DNA from: Heliocidaris erythrogramma
Taxonomy: Eukaryota > Echinodermata > Echinoidea > Camarodonta > Echinometridae
Assembly: GCA_025617745.1 (NCBI GenBank)
Contig: CM046853.1
Coordinates: 4,212,873-4,276,872 of the forward strand
Length of the DNA stretch: 64,000 nt
Direction: 5' to 3'
Under the pieces are notes generated by a model. The model did no database searches and was not told where the DNA came from. It saw only the letters and a list, made by a program, of their open reading frames with translations. Made by a program: the position numbers and the translations under genes. Positions 2,563 to 51,400 of the stretch are shown in pieces; the stretch's first letter is position 1, and each line of letters opens with the position of its first letter.

Positions 2563-2772
2563 CCTGAGAGACTTGGTCAGTTGATGTAGGGCGTTGCAGC
2601 AATGAGCTGTATTACAAGGATGCGCCACGACTGGTGACATTATGGTACCAAATAACCAATTCTGTCTTCGACATTTTTGGTTTAAATTGCATGTTATGAT
2701 AATCTTTTAATCCTTAAATGCTGCTTTTCATCTGTGGTTAATTCTCACAAGTAATTTGTTGATATGAGTAAC

Positions 2773-2813
2773 ACTCCTGATGATGGACAGTCAACCTGTC
2801 CGAAACGTCGAGT
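2773..2813 (+). ncRNA. hammerhead-ribozyme-like motif with minimal stem III
   Basis: All conserved core blocks occur in order. Stem I is ACTC (2773-2776) with GAGT (2810-2813). CTGATGA is at 2777-2783. Stem II is GGACAG (2785-2790) with CTGTCC (2796-2801) around the loop TCAAC. GAAA is at 2802-2805, followed by CGTC (2806-2809), with predicted cleavage after GTC. Stem III consists only of the self-complementary ACGT, so cleavage would need a dimer, as described for hammerhead motifs of Penelope-like retroelements. One extra U lies between CTGATGA and stem II, which may weaken or abolish activity. The open frame across this stretch is a shadow. Confidence 0.5.
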
Positions 2814-2846
2814 CTTCTCCACTCCCAGCCTTCTCATCTGGTTTAC

Positions 2847-2880
2847 AGTCCTTTTCAGGACTACACACTTTCAAGAAAGA
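2847..2880 (+). promoter_or_regulatory. histone-type 3'-end processing signal look-alike
   Basis: A 6-bp stem AGTCCT/AGGACT closes a TTTC loop (2847-2862). It is followed by ACACAC and, 9 nt after the stem, by CAAGAAAGA (2872-2880). That 9-mer is the sea urchin histone downstream element that pairs with U7 snRNA, and the 6-bp stem with a UUUC loop matches the histone hairpin geometry. The stem sequence differs from the usual GGCTCT/AGAGCC but keeps pairing. No histone ORF is nearby. It lies 34 nt downstream of the hammerhead-like motif, so I read it as part of a retroelement-like repeat. Function is inferred, not shown. Confidence 0.5.
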
Positions 2881-2965
2881 TTACTTCTACACTCTCTGAA
2901 TTTCTATCTCGCCTTTCCTTTTCTTCTCCTCTCAACTTTTCTCCACTTTCTTCTTCTTACTCAAT

Positions 2966-2981
2966 AGTCCTTTTCAGGACT
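2966..2981 (+). repeat. second copy of the histone-type hairpin
   Basis: The same 16-nt AGTCCT-TTTC-AGGACT hairpin recurs 119 bp after the first, followed by AACCACA but without CAAGAAAGA. The flanking words GGTTTACAGT (2839-2848) and ACTGTAAACC (about 2993-3002) are inverted, so the two hairpins sit in a weak inverted arrangement. Confidence 0.5.
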
Positions 2982-3009
2982 AACCACATGGTGAACTGTA
3001 AACCTTCTC

Positions 3010-3573
3010 CACGTTATCAGTACCACCATGCAAAGCTCTACCTTCAAAGAATAACACCAATTGGTGATTTGGATTGTTTGCATATCACTAAGGTTTATAT
3101 TCAAAAAGCATTATTTTTTGTTTTCCTGCTAATAGGGGTTATTTATTTTAAACACTATTAGGGGTATTATACTTGGTACCATAGTATTTTATATGCCACT
3201 TAGGGTATTTTTGGCTGGCATGATGACCCTGTTGATGCCATTTAGGGTATGTTTTTCGAGTTCTGTGATAACTATCATAACTCATTGGTTTTTCTGATGT
3301 GACGCCGCCGTATAGGGGTGCAAATTAGACTTTGTGCAATACGCCATTCAGGGTCCATTTTTGAAGTGTGTGGATGTGCTTGGGATGTTATGTTTAGGAT
3401 GTTATGTTTAGGGATGGATTGATTTAGATCCTTTAGTCAGTGGGATTAAATGCCTGATATCAGGTAAGTAGTCATATATGGATAATTGATTGAGAACACT
3501 GATGCAAATACCTAAATGCTATCATTTGACATTCTCTATTGACTACCAGTATTCTGTTATCATACAACTGAAT
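3010..3573. other. non-coding, dispersed TAGGGT words
   Basis: No gene seen. Between about 3130 and 3355 the stretch repeats short words such as attaggggt and gccatttagggta, which suggests a decayed short tandem or MITE. Nothing more specific can be supported. Confidence 0.4.
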
Positions 3574-4103
3574 TTTTATGCCTCCGCCCACCGTAGGTGG
3601 TTCCGGAGGTATTATGTTTTTGGGTCGTCCGTCCGTCCCCTTTTCGTTCTCGCGATAACTTAAAAACCGTGTTTTTTTTTGGGATCAGTTTGTAACTTGG
3701 CCCATGTATGCATATGGGAGGGACGATGAACTGATTAGATTTTGGGGTCTCAAGGTCAAAGGTCATAGAGGTCATTATATACATAAAAATGGTTCGTTCT
3801 TGTGATAACTTAGGAACCGTTTGGCGGATCAGCTTCTAACTTGGCCCATGTATTCATATGGGAGGGACGATGAACTGATCAGATTTTGGGGTCTCAAGGT
3901 CAAAGGTCAAAGGTCACAGAGGTAATTATGTACATAAAAATGGTTAGTTCTCGCAGTAACTTCAGAACTGTTTGACAGATCAGCTTCTAACCTGGCCCAT
4001 GTTTGCATACATGTATGGGAGGGACAATGAACTGATTAGATTTTAGGGTCTCAAGGTCAAAGGTCAGAGGCGTCATTATGTACATGTATAAAAATGGTTC
4101 TTG
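3574..4103 (+). repeat. tandem array of about 150-bp units with DR1 motifs
   Basis: The array begins with a GC-rich imperfect hairpin (TGCCTCCGCCCACC paired with GGTTCCGGAGG, 3580-3612) and a GTCCGTCC stretch. Three units follow, sharing tggcccatgt, gggagggac, tgaactgat and ggtctcaaggtcaaaggtca. Each unit carries AGGTCA-A-AGGTCA (3753-3765, 3897-3909, 4054-4066); unit 2 has a third half-site (3911-3916). A related hairpin start is seen at 31034-31070. Confidence 0.75.
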
Positions 4104-5811
4104 ATGTATGGAGTCCAGGCCTACCTACATGTATTTTAGAAATTTCAAGGGGACAGTGGTCTATTTGCTATAAAATATCTATTTCCTTGGTGTATTTGAT
4201 GATTGTAAGTCATCAATGGTAAGTTTTTTATTTGAAAATGAAATGAAATAAATTTTCTGTCTCCTGTGCTTTTTAAGTGAAAAGATTTGTAATTTTGTTG
4301 GACCAATCCTTTTTAGAATGTACATACCATACATTTCCAATCTGGTGATGGCAGAGGCATAAATTCGGACTAGATTCATCTAGTTCGGATATTACTTTTT
4401 TGTAGGTGCGAGCCATAATTTGCATGTAATTTAGGGCCGGTCTTATGTAACCCTAGTACAGGCCTATATGTAACTCCAAAATCAGAATTTCCTTCTATAT
4501 GTAGTGACTGTATTTTCGTACTGGAACTGTCAAATCTGCTGTTTGTTGTTTGAGAAACATTGACAAGCAAACATGTGGGAGAGCGAAGTAAAGTGATGAA
4601 CCAAGCTGATATGCAGTGATAGCATACCACACATAGCAGGTGAGGTATATAAGGTCATCTGCCCCTCTACATCATCTACCATTGGGTCCACATATTTAAA
4701 GTATGGAACAGTACCTCACCACATCAATCTTCATTTAGGAACAAATGCTATGATACATGTAGGGTCTAACACAGTGGTGCCTGTGTTCTATACCAATCTA
4801 GAACCAAAAGATACATGTAGGCCTAAAAGTTGTCAACATGGTTTAATATTTAGCAGTTTTCTTCACAAATGCCTTTCACTGTGACTTCAGTCCCACATGT
4901 TATTAGTATATTGCATTATTGGTTCAACATTATCCACCCAGTAGTATTGAACAATGGTTAAACATAAATCAAAATAACTGAGATATTACAGCACTTGTTT
5001 TGAGGAGAGTGGTTGGATAAGCTATTGTATTTTGTCTCATACAGTGCATGCTAAATAAAGAAACATACATTGATATTAATTTATGTTAAGACCTATTTAA
5101 ATTGAAGGAACATTAATGATTGTTTCTTGCTTTTGATTGTACCGTATATTCAACAATAGAATGTCAGATATGTGTATGCCTAAGAAACTTATTTAGTACA
5201 TATACACATGTGGTGCAGATTTGATCCAAATAACAAACATGATAAACTGTCATAATGGGTTTATACAGGAACCTGTAGATAGAGGTGTCTGGTCTGTTCT
5301 ATATCCTTCACCCTGCTTACATGGTACACTGACTGCTTTCATATCATTTGTACTCTACCTCAAACTCTACCACCCACCTATTTCTTCAGAATGCATTCTC
5401 TCTCTACCATAGTAAACAAGCCATCCCTTCGTTGGCATTGAAGTGTGTTACTATTATTAGCTGGTGTACACCAACATATTGTCATGTAAAGTTGTTCCCC
5501 CGGTTAGCTGAATAGAAACTATTTTTTAATTTCTCTTGATGGCAGGGTATTCTTTGTTCAACTAAGAAAAAGTTATGGTTCCAGACGTGGAATTCTCGTT
5601 AGATCATATTTTGCCTGGTGCTCTCATTTTGTCTACAAGCTGTGTTGTGAGTTAATTTGTGACTGCCTCTATCTACATTACAAAGAATTAGACGTTTTAC
5701 ATCTAATTAATTAAAGATTATGAAAAGCAGATAGGGCCTATATTTGTAGGAAGAGATAAACCTGACATTTTATCCTGTTCTAGCTTTAATTTAAATCAAT
5801 AATTGATTTGG
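4104..5811. other. non-coding, nothing recognised
   Basis: AT-rich unique-looking DNA. Small open frames show no family resemblance and no consistent splice context. Confidence 0.6.
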
Positions 5812-48499: not shown

Positions 48500-51400
48500 A
48501 GAGTGTCGGCCAGTTCTAGGTAGTCTTGCTGGTTGTCAAATGCTTCAGCCAACCGAGCTCTATCCGTTTTCGATATTTTTACGCATGGCAGAAAGTTATG
48601 GTTTACGTCAACTAATTACAAATCCGACAAGGATTACCAACACAAGTTCATCTCTAATTGACCACTTTTACACTAATATTTCCTCCTATCCTATTCGGGC
48701 AGGATGTCTTAAGTTTCTGATTATTTTCCGGGGTAACCTCGCTAGTCATAAGGACCGCTATCCATAACGCGTGACTAAATGAATAGCGGTTTTCTATGGA
48801 TAGCGGTCCTTCTAAATAGCGAGCAAACAAAAGACAAATTACCTCGCTATTCATAAGGGCCTCCATTCATAAGGACCACTATTCATAACTATTCATAAGG
48901 ACCGCTATTCATAGCGCGTGTTAAATGAATAGCGGTTTTCTAAGAATAGCGGTCCTTATGAATAGCGAGCGGACCCGCATTTTCCGGTGTACGCTGTTTT
49001 CGAGAATTTTAAGTGTATTAAACCGGCCATGAAGAAAGTGACATGCAGAAATTTTCGCAATTTTTCGTTGGATTTTTTTTTGTAATGATTTAATTAATAA
49101 CAAATGGCTGGATGTGCTCAGATGCTCTGACCCAAATGAAGCGTACAATATTTTTCTTCGCCAGTTTTCATATGTATGTGACAAACATGCACCGAAACCC
49201 AAAATATTAAATTGAAGAAAAATAAATAAATAAGATAAACCTTGGATTACACATGCTACTAAGCGCTCAATATTAAGAAAACACAAACACTTTTTTTCTC
49301 AAGTAATTAAGTCTAAATATAATGACGAGGTTCTTGGAAAGTATAAAAGGTAATAAAAATAAACGTCCTAACTACAGTTCTCAGAACGGCAAAGCAAACA
49401 TATTATAATCAACAATTTGAACGACATAAAAAGAAAAAAAAAACATAGGAGCACATTAATGAACTCCTGAATAAGAAAAGTTCAGCAAAAACTGATGGTA
49501 AAATTCACAAAGTCGTTTACTGATGGATAACTGTTGAGGTTTCTTCATCAGAAGATATTGCAAATGTTTTCAACGCAAGTAAAATAGAATATACAGACGT
49601 TGACTATAATAGATATTTAGGTTCCTATACCAGAATGAATCATTCGTTTTCTTCCGGTAACAAGTTATGAAATAAAAGAAGTGATAAGTAACCTTGATCA
49701 GTCTAAGGCCAGTGGATATGATGATTTATCAGTTCGACTATATATGCACAGAACTATATGTTTGCCAACCACTCGCGCATATATTAAACCTATCATTCAC
49801 AATTAAAAGTAGCGAGAGTTGTGTCTGTATTTAAAAAGGGAGACAAAAGTTTGCCGGGTAACTATAGGCCCATATCAATTTTACCAGTTGTGGATAAATT
49901 GTTTGAAAAACTTGTAAATATTCGAGTGGTGAAATTCTTGCAGAAAAAAAAATTATATAATCATCAGTATGGATTTAGACATGGATATATTACAAAACTG
50001 TCGCTTATAAACTTGATCAATCAAATTACTCAATCTACTGATGAAGGGAGCTTGACAGTAGGAGTATTTATCGAATTTGCTAAGGCATTCGATACAATTA
50101 ATCACTATATTTTTTCAAAAAAAGTGGAGCATTACGGAATTTGGGGAAAGTGTTACAGTGGTTTAAGAATTATTTTTGAAAAAGACAACAATTTGTAACT
50201 TATACGACTCTGTGAAATCTGATTATAAATTTATTTCATGCGGCGTCCCCCAGGGCTCGGTGTTAGGCCCGACATTATTTCTCGTCTACTTTAATGACCT
50301 ACCAAATTCATCAAATTATTTCAATTTCAATTATTTGCCGATGATTCTAACCTATTTCATACATTTAAGCATGATGAACGTAATATTGATTTATCAGAAT
50401 TTAACCGTAACCTGAAAGCTGTTACAGATTGGTGCAACTCAAACAAACTTACAATAAATACAAAAAACTCAACTAATTACATGTTATTAAAAAATCGACA
50501 AAGACATTTCTCAATTTCAGGTCAATGGCTCATTAATGAAACCATTTTAGAGTCAGTTGAGTCAACATCGTTCCTTGGAATCGTATAGACAAAAAAATGA
50601 CCTGGAAGAAACACATTGATAATTTACGCAATTTACTAAGTAAAAAGATTGGAATATTGTATAGATTAAGACACTTCGTGTCAAGAAAAATAATGGTCAT
50701 CTTATATAATTCTTTTATTTTACCCCCATATAACGTATGGATTAGAAGTTTGGGGTGCTACATGTAAGAAAACTCTGAATCCTGTCCTAATCTTCAGAAA
50801 CGAATGGCCAGAGTAATTGCTTTCAAAGGTTCGAGATATCACTCTGCTCCTTTACTTTATGATCTTAAAGTGCTAAATATTTTCAAAGAATATCGCCATG
50901 TAATTGGTATTTTTATGCATAATAATAATGTATAACCGTCTGCCTCATACTGTATCTGTACTTTATAGTACTAGAACACCCTTATCATACAAGAAACAAA
51001 GAGAAATCTAATTTGAATTTTTCAATCAGTAATACAAATCTGGGGAAATAATTTCATATTCAGGACCCGTTATGTGGAATAATTTGCCAAAAGAATTAAG
51101 GAATATAACCAGTCGCAGAAGTTTTGGACGGGCATTACAAGAATACTTAATTGGAAAATACCAACTTGAAAATCAATTTTAGAATGTTCATGAAGGTCAT
51201 TATCATTCATTTTATTTATTTTTAGCTCACTTGATATTCGTTAGTATTGTTGTTGTTGTACTGCTATTACTACATTTATTGATTGTAAATAATGTACATG
51301 TGTTATTTAAAAAAAAAGAAGATATATGAGATGTTCATTTCAATTAATTTGCTAACTATTGATTTATGTAATCAATTTTACGGGGCTAACCTCGATTAGC

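Follow-up and report, generated by a model that had tools for sequence, protein, structure and literature searches.

The window analysed here, a stretch of 64,000 nt of the Heliocidaris erythrogramma genome (contig CM046853.1, positions 4,212,873 to 4,276,872), carries a hammerhead ribozyme (HHR) core followed by a hairpin and a downstream box of the kind found at the 3' ends of histone messages. This locus raises the question of which element joins both signals and whether its RNA could be ended in the histone manner. The repeat to which the motifs belong suggests, from its sequence, that the histone way of ending messages was borrowed by a Penelope-like element (PLE).

All motifs of the window copy were located by direct reading of the letters (Table 1). 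The HHR core, the hairpin (SL1), the histone downstream element (HDE) at 9 nt and the second hairpin (SL2) listed in the initial annotation were all present, the gap between GAGT and SL1 being 33 nt and not the 34 nt first reported. The elements by which a type I HHR is recognised (CUGAUGA, stem II, GAAA, stem I and a NUH site) were found in the window copy, which is without stem III and has a two-pair palindromic ACGT in its place; cleavage is predicted after C2809. SL1 consists of 6 bp and a UUUC loop, with a G-C second pair and a U-A closing pair. Histone-type cleavage takes place about 4–5 nt past the hairpin, and a cut of this type in the window copy would fall at about 2866–2867. In longer copies of the repeat, CTTCAAAGATCATC replaces CTTCAAAGA as the 3' terminus. 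A 9-bp inverted repeat, GGTTTACAG/CTGTAAACC (2840–2848 and 2996–3004), flanks both hairpins and is exact in the window copy; it was discarded as a functional feature, since the right arm deviates, mostly by one base, in about 25 of the 30 aligned copies of the same family (family A), as CCGTAAACC or otherwise, and the left arm is absent from family B. Elsewhere in the window, positions 3643–4108 hold three to four diverged tandem copies of a unit of about 150 bp containing AAGGTCAAAGGTCA, and an open frame at 49788–50198 resembles by eye a LINE reverse transcriptase fragment.

Table 1. Features of the window copy and three SL1-to-SL1 units found elsewhere in the genome (pLTR, pseudo-LTR).
Feature	Position	Strand	Basis
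Short solo-pLTR-type copy, family A of a GIY-YIG PLE	2772..3050	+	Genome search and boundaries of the 30-copy alignment
Minimal type I HHR core	2773..2813	+	Sequence; predicted ribozyme
HHR stem I, ACTC / GAGT	2773-2776 / 2810-2813	+	Sequence
HHR CTGATGA	2777-2783	+	Sequence
HHR stem II, GGACAG / CTGTCC	2785-2790 / 2796-2801	+	Sequence
HHR GAAACGTC (GAAA = 2802-2805)	2802-2809	+	Sequence
SL1, histone-type stem-loop AGTCCTTTTCAGGACT	2847-2862	+	Rfam Histone3 below gathering score; compensatory changes
9-nt spacer between SL1 and HDE	2863-2871	+	Sequence
HDE CAAGAAAGA	2872-2880	+	Identical to host histone-gene box
SL2, second hairpin identical to SL1, without HDE	2966-2981	+	Sequence
Block CACATGGTGAACTGTAAACC	2985..3004	+	Alignment of copies; CACATGGTGA...GTAAA common to families A-E
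ACCATG context and CTTCAAAGA 3' terminus	3025..3050	+	3' ends of copies; putative ORF start
SL1-to-SL1 unit	C5:25880474-25883603		
SL1-to-SL1 unit	C8:3605840-3608968		
SL1-to-SL1 unit	C9:29423626-29426754		

Each motif was weighed against chance. At fixed spacing, the HHR pattern gave one exact site in the window and one at three mismatches, the chance expectation at up to three mismatches being about 1.6. The hairpin alone gave two sites at up to three mismatches, both exact, and is weak evidence because 19 of 100 shuffles also reached two. The histone-type stem-loop followed at 8–14 nt by A[AC]GAAAG was found once in the window, in none of 60 first-order Markov windows and nowhere in 744 kb from 81 unrelated loci. 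In 122 kb from 38 host loci, stem-loop and HDE occurred together once, at a locus of a second element type (L003) that had been recruited by its HHR pattern alone. The Rfam model Histone3 scored 23.9 bits on positions 2842–2886 (E = 2.6e-4 in a search of 601 bases) and did not reach its gathering score of 34; a scan of the whole window at gathering score reported no match, and this threshold alone would therefore miss the signal. A hammerhead model check, which the initial annotation had proposed for dimers, came out negative on the window: Rfam hammerhead families gave no match, either at gathering score across the whole stretch or at E up to 10 in 2600–3200.

The genome (1.064 Gb in 26 contigs) was searched with a 251-bp query, which yielded 60 matching pieces; the 40 best of 2004 candidates, which were scored, comprised the window itself and 39 others at 96–98% identity. 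In the 30 family A copies that were aligned, GTCCGAAA was kept throughout and CTGATGA in 29, the HHR core with its stem II side and GTC/GTT was retained in 28, and both the six SL1 pairs (loop changes allowed) and the exact CAAGAAAGA were intact in 26 copies each. Eighteen of the 30 start 0–6 nt before CTGATGA and 12 extend further upstream, where the longer ones carry TTATACCCC, placed 34 nt before CTGATGA in L031. The 3' ends lie around CCACGT (~3011–3016) in 10 copies, at CTTCAAAGATCATC in 18 and between both in two. All 30 extend beyond the two hairpins, which means that some template RNAs, at least, escaped cutting there. The 30 family A copies, like the 20 of family B described below, are the best-scoring ones of the genome search, a sampling that favours complete copies and would miss copies ending at SL1. 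The copies sampled are single or head-to-head pieces. Genome-wide, the exact succession GAAACGTC, 25–50 nt, AGTCCTTTTCAGGACT, 8–14 nt, AAGAAAGA was found at 181 sites, the reversed control giving 0.

The retroelement had initially been guessed to be Penelope-like, and the coding sequences confirmed it. L028 contains coding sequence for a reverse transcriptase (RT) and a GIY-YIG domain, interrupted by a frameshift and one stop, that runs into a family A pLTR; in L192 and L206, GIY-YIG coding sequence precedes the pLTRs of family B. In the downstream pLTR of L028, SL1 is damaged and the HDE is gone, and an inverted pLTR sits at the 5' truncation, where the RT is truncated. The same C-terminal reading as in L028, QDFTSTTSGFLFSTTRLLHP, stands in L031 upstream of an intact family A HHR, SL1 and HDE. 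RT coding sequence was also present in L198. Pfam searches of the PLE coding sequence gave RVT_1 at E 7e-4 and 1.7e-4 and GIY-YIG at E 0.011 and 0.0024 (7e-4 and 0.011 for the sequence that runs into family A), all below the curated cut-offs, and one single coding fragment gave no Pfam match. AMGSPLSP and CGKVYIGETGR were taken by us to be PLE protein motifs. RT and a C-terminal GIY-YIG in one element, direct pseudo-LTR repeats, 5' truncation and inverted partial copies, by which a PLE is recognised, were all observed, and head-to-head pieces were seen among the family A and B matches. In the C-terminal region of the PLE, L028:2668-3171 matched an eIF4E-binding protein family (PF05456, E 5e-4) with 20.4 bits, below the cut-off of 24.

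Further families with the same signals were found. Family B comprised 48 pieces (the best 40 of 138 candidates were scored), and 20 loci were aligned. In its layout, TATATATA follows several CCAAT boxes and precedes an HHR whose stem II differs, after which come SL1 AGTTCTTTTAAGAACT, CACGAAAGA and SL2. The six SL1 pairs are kept in 16 of these 20 copies and the HDE region is deleted in two; at least two CCAAT boxes are present in 17 and the tested TATA motif in 19. We take this arrangement of CCAAT and TATA to be reminiscent of histone gene promoters. In the 190 nt upstream of the HHR, family B loci including L191 hold 0–4 CCAAT and 0–1 inverted CCAAT per copy. When ten loci were scanned with Histone3, E 0.5 was reached by five of six family B loci (20.8–23.6 bits) and by none of four family A loci. 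The GIY-YIG fragment of a family B element was then compared with the genome (the best 150 of 2233 candidates were scored), giving frames of up to 954 aa. Family C (L222 and L227, with the 954-aa frame) has the family A HHR, SL1 AGTCCTTTTCAGGACT 110 nt on and CACGAAAGA after 11 nt; family D (L223 and L228) is alike except that the sampled copy has CACAAAAGA, with one HDE mismatch. SL2, present in A and B, was not seen in the sampled copies of C and D. Family E (L225 and L229) carries SL1 AGTCCTTCTAAGGACT, after which no clear HDE was seen, and a degenerate HHR core with CTGGTGA and GGAAC and a re-paired stem II. Family F (L224), whose protein is 67% identical, has the HHR and no histone-type stem-loop, and a 44% identical relative (L226) has neither. 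Overall, three of the five GIY-YIG matches whose downstream sequence was read have SL1, two of these with a recognisable HDE.

In the five pLTR families A to E the order is TATA, HHR core 34–37 nt later and then SL1. The linker from HHR to SL1 is 6 nt in B, 37 in A, 110 in C and D and 120 in E, so that the motifs behave as conserved islands. An HDE follows SL1 in four of the five families (A to D, with the mismatch in D), at 9 nt in A and B and at 11 nt in C and D. The order TATA, HHR, SL1 with HDE, downstream of the GIY-YIG domain, is thus plain from the sequences. Constant spacing had been set initially as a test: the near-constant 9–11 nt between SL1 and HDE agrees with it, while the 6–120 nt between HHR and SL1 in different families does not. 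Both motifs do recur together; some PLE relatives have an HHR without histone-type signal. Among 30 other loci from the Pfam GIY-YIG search (L040–L069), an HHR-like motif as defined by our criteria was found in 22, of which 21 belong to one other type, and none of the 30 has a histone-type stem-loop with HDE in the vicinity, one hairpin without HDE being flagged. In that other PLE type (21 of 30 loci, such as L044, L045 and L047), the HHR core CTGATGAAGCCCTATGGGCGAAAATTT lies 282–527 nt after the GIY-YIG match.

The linkage between the coding sequence and the histone-type signal was also found at genome scale. The family C string of SL1 plus HDE occurs at 634 sites at up to one mismatch, with 0 in the control, and that of family D at 510, of which only 19 are exact; the two counts overlap, a site being able to lie one mismatch from both, and are not additive. 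Of the 112 GIY-YIG matches on contigs C1 to C13, 34 are followed on their own strand by an exact family C site, at a distance of 674–677 nt in 27 cases, and 78 have none. With family D sites included, 18 of the 25 matches on C1 and C2 have a site and seven have neither. In three units, defined by the SL1 plus HDE repeats and the GIY-YIG match alone (Table 1), direct repeats of SL1 lie 3128–3129 nt apart and flank the match, with SL1 and HDE at both ends.

Covariation in the hairpin and hammerhead stems, which the initial annotation had named as a test, was found in both. In the HHR stems of eight sequences, including two that belong to other PLE types, five pairs are changed on both sides, with 13 cells and a score of 0.396; in 500 shuffles, values as high were reached 0 times for cells, 0 for the score, 26 for pairs and 249 for pair types, and 90% of cells are paired versus at most 40% when the strands are slid. 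SL1 was analysed in 15 distinct PLE variants, L033, L036 and L204 having been left out because of indels or a broken stem, so that the counts lean toward intact hairpins: two pairs are changed on both sides, with six cells and a score of 0.251, reached in 500 shuffles 0 times for cells and for score, 34 for pairs and 477 for pair types, and 96% of cells are paired versus at most 51% when slid. By this measure, pairs and pair types are unexceptional in both stems. These shuffle counts are not probabilities, since the families are related. With three host rows added, the SL1 values rise to three pairs and 12 cells. The bases expected for binding of SLBP type are kept, the second pair being G-C in 14 of the 15 distinct rows and the closing pair U-A also in 14; UUUC and UUUA loops prevail, and the first pair is A-U, not G-C.

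The host's own histone ends were examined for comparison. Of 75 Histone3 matches scored in the host genome, 73 were over the cut-off, and of ten loci read, five follow histone genes, named by their reading frames: H2B (L216), H4 (L217), H3 (L219) and H2A (L220 and L221). These five ends consist of GGCTCTTTT[CA]AGAGCC, 10 nt and then CAAGAAAG or, in H4, CACGAAAG. The family A HDE CAAGAAAGA is the box of L216, L219, L220 and L221, and the HDE CACGAAAGA of families B and C is that of H4, so the PLE boxes match the host in sequence and, at 9–11 nt versus 10 nt in the five genes, in spacing. A U7 search of the host genome gave nothing over the cut-off of 34, the best match having 27.3 bits; pairing of the PLE boxes with U7 would be implied by their likeness to the host HDEs. 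With motifs that recur together, an HDE that matches the host and compensatory changes in the stems, the test that had been set in advance for the initial proposal was in the main withstood.

From these data we consider it probable, at about 0.6, that the window repeat is the pLTR of a GIY-YIG PLE combining a promoter, a minimal HHR and a histone 3'-end signal of host type. Among the points counted against it were the A-U outer pair of SL1 versus the canonical G-C, the missing HHR stem III and the Rfam scores below threshold. Given the near-constant distance from TATA to HHR, the transcript would carry the HHR right at its 5' end; with transcription starting about 28 nt past the TATA, the transcript would open with the first strand of HHR stem I. 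At the downstream pLTR, SLBP on SL1 and a U7 snRNP paired with the HDE would bring about a cut a few nt past SL1, and the resulting mRNA would be capped, non-polyadenylated and histone-like, with the HHR-to-SL1 segment at both ends, a terminal repeat comparable to the R region of an LTR retrotransposon. As stem III is only the self-complementary ACGT, two HHR halves would have to pair as a dimer, and the partners could be the two ends of one such RNA. Reverse transcription would begin internally near the ORF start, as in the Anolis PLE Poseidon PAc, for which this start and a need for the first 172 nt of the ORF are described (PMC11167929). If the unit-length mRNA ended at the downstream SL1, only the stretch from the ORF start back to the cap would be copied, and this product, from start site to ATG, would resemble the abundant copies of about 280 nt, which presumably run from the start site to near ACCATG; full or longer copies would need read-through into a second unit. 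A single scheme, all of whose RNA steps are inferred, may thus join the copy ends and the histone signal. It would require skipping of the upstream copy, because SL1 stands directly behind the presumed start as well. As for the combination of self-cleavage and a borrowed histone end proposed initially, the recurrence of the motifs together and the identity of the HDE with host boxes favour it; however, the 30 copies pass SL1 and SL2 and have their two favoured end points beyond them, which argues against a simple reading in which the RNA ends there.

Other explanations were weighed against the same observations. The stem-loops may bind host SLBP without being cut, as part of the 5' leader of the PLE mRNA, tying its export, stability or translation to S phase. 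Such binding would fit the place of SL1, 6–120 nt past the HHR and close to the presumed start, its presence ahead of the coding region as well in the three units, and the retention of SL2 in A and B despite its having no HDE; binding would not need an HDE, however, and A, B and C have one that matches the host at host-like spacing, so we regard this as unlikely. SL1 with HDE might also act as a promoter-proximal terminator, by which most transcripts would be cut about 95 nt in, leaving a short hammerhead-hairpin RNA, and read-through transcripts alone would be mobilised. Its position right after the presumed start site agrees with this, as do the 30 of 30 sampled copies that pass through SL1 and would derive from read-through templates, in a sample that favours complete copies. 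Histone-type processing close to a start site may nevertheless be weak, and the terminator seems to us rather improbable.

A quite different possibility is that the PLE protein recognises its template by the hairpins and that their likeness to histone ends is superficial. The two near-identical hairpins do stand directly before the region of copy ends, but recognition of this kind leaves the match of the HDE to host boxes aside, SL2 is absent from the sampled C and D copies, and another host PLE group has an HHR without these hairpins. In addition, the Anolis PLE needs RNA in the first 172 nt of its ORF (PMC11167929). We consider this explanation very unlikely. Least probable of all is a chance resemblance spread by copy number: the hairpin alone is not rare and family A copies are 96–98% alike, so that conservation within the family says little, but separate families with different linkers keep the SL1 pairing, four of them keep the HDE at near-fixed spacing, compensatory changes are present and the background of stem-loop plus HDE is near zero. 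The comparison of families has largely refuted it.

Beyond the combination of signals in the pLTR, we propose tentatively, as something that may well turn out otherwise, that a PLE lineage hijacked the histone 3'-end pathway, its R region being set by the transcription start and the cleavage site. Its mRNAs would be non-polyadenylated, tied to S phase and terminally redundant, and a half-HHR at each end, working only when the ends meet, could cut and circularise the RNA. Among metazoan mRNAs, only the replication-dependent histone messages are known to lack poly(A), according to PMC10388802. If the proposal is true, this class would be widened to mobile elements by a lineage in which the signal is present in hundreds of copies, PLE expression would have a means of being tied to S phase, and the unexplained PLE hammerhead would acquire a concrete role.

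Minimal hammerheads in PLE pseudo-LTRs were reportedly noted by Cervera and De la Pena in 2014 and by Lunse in 2017. They are described in PMC7761336, where their role is called "still a mystery". The PLEs with minimal HHR of PMC7761336, PMC6155905 and PMC7229834 are like the present one in PLE coding sequence, direct pLTRs and a type I HHR without stem III; unlike here, a histone-type stem-loop or HDE is undescribed in the available portions of these papers. The word "histone" does not occur in the main text of these three papers or of PMC11167929. Poseidon PAc also has an HHR at the junction of pLTR and ORF and an internal RT start that explains copy tails, but its printed template has GAAACGUC just past the start codon (PMC11167929), whereas the HHR of the present element precedes the hairpins and coincides with the presumed start of transcription; hairpins and histone signals are not mentioned in that paper. 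With the 3' end of histone mRNAs, formed by SLBP and U7 (PMC10388802 and PMC7026596), the PLE signal shares the 6-bp stem, the 4-nt loop, the second G-C pair and an HDE at 9–11 nt; it differs in the outer pair, A-U instead of G-C, and in lying by a presumed start site rather than after a histone ORF. Metazoan non-LTR retrozymes are likewise short non-coding repeats with a type I HHR, but in PMC7229834 they are short tandem repeats of 150–450 bp, with canonical HHRs in the coral example, whereas single or head-to-head copies with a minimal HHR were sampled here. The initial annotation knew of no described element with both motifs. In our search, no publication linking a histone-type end to PLEs or to any other mobile element was found among the papers listed, subscription journals being outside its scope. 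In the accessible text of works naming Penelope-like, hammerhead, histone and stem-loop together, "histone" refers only to chromatin or to an enzyme. The PLE hammerheads themselves are already known from this literature.

Searches in other sequence collections were also performed. The only exact match of the 19-nt hairpin in prokaryote genomes, in a Bacteroidetes assembly (L001), had no HHR core within 8 kb and was taken as chance. Nothing was found in IMG/VR, which was scanned with the hairpin, with a longer hairpin string of coral repeats and for a relative of the GIY-YIG protein, or in a phage collection. An IMG/VR scan for the HHR core gave at least 120 stretches; under a criterion of a stem II with at least four pairs, none of the 80 loci listed had a histone-type hairpin within 250 nt. 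These scans being negative, the signal was not shown in a second species.

Within the host itself, at least two other repeat families have fully canonical histone ends, and the borrowing of histone ends may thus be a recurrent strategy of mobile elements. The remaining five of the ten Histone3 loci belong to two repeat families. The dispersed repeat of L213–L215, and partly of L212, has a canonical histone stem-loop above the Rfam gathering score, followed after 10 nt by CAAGAAAGA, and from its sequence it appears to be a second, mobile-looking family with a histone end. It lies at C3:10410640, C6:20498930 and C12:26587335, with 14 copies at up to two mismatches; the L213 frame ends in ..SSDDDFE and the L215 fragment has no Pfam match. 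At L218 (C14:17757390-17757810) a DDE transposase frame (PF13358, E 4e-11), presumably of Tc1/mariner type, precedes a canonical histone stem-loop with CAAGAAAG. This end string has four exact copies, of which three lie on C14 in a stretch of 26 kb and the fourth on C20.
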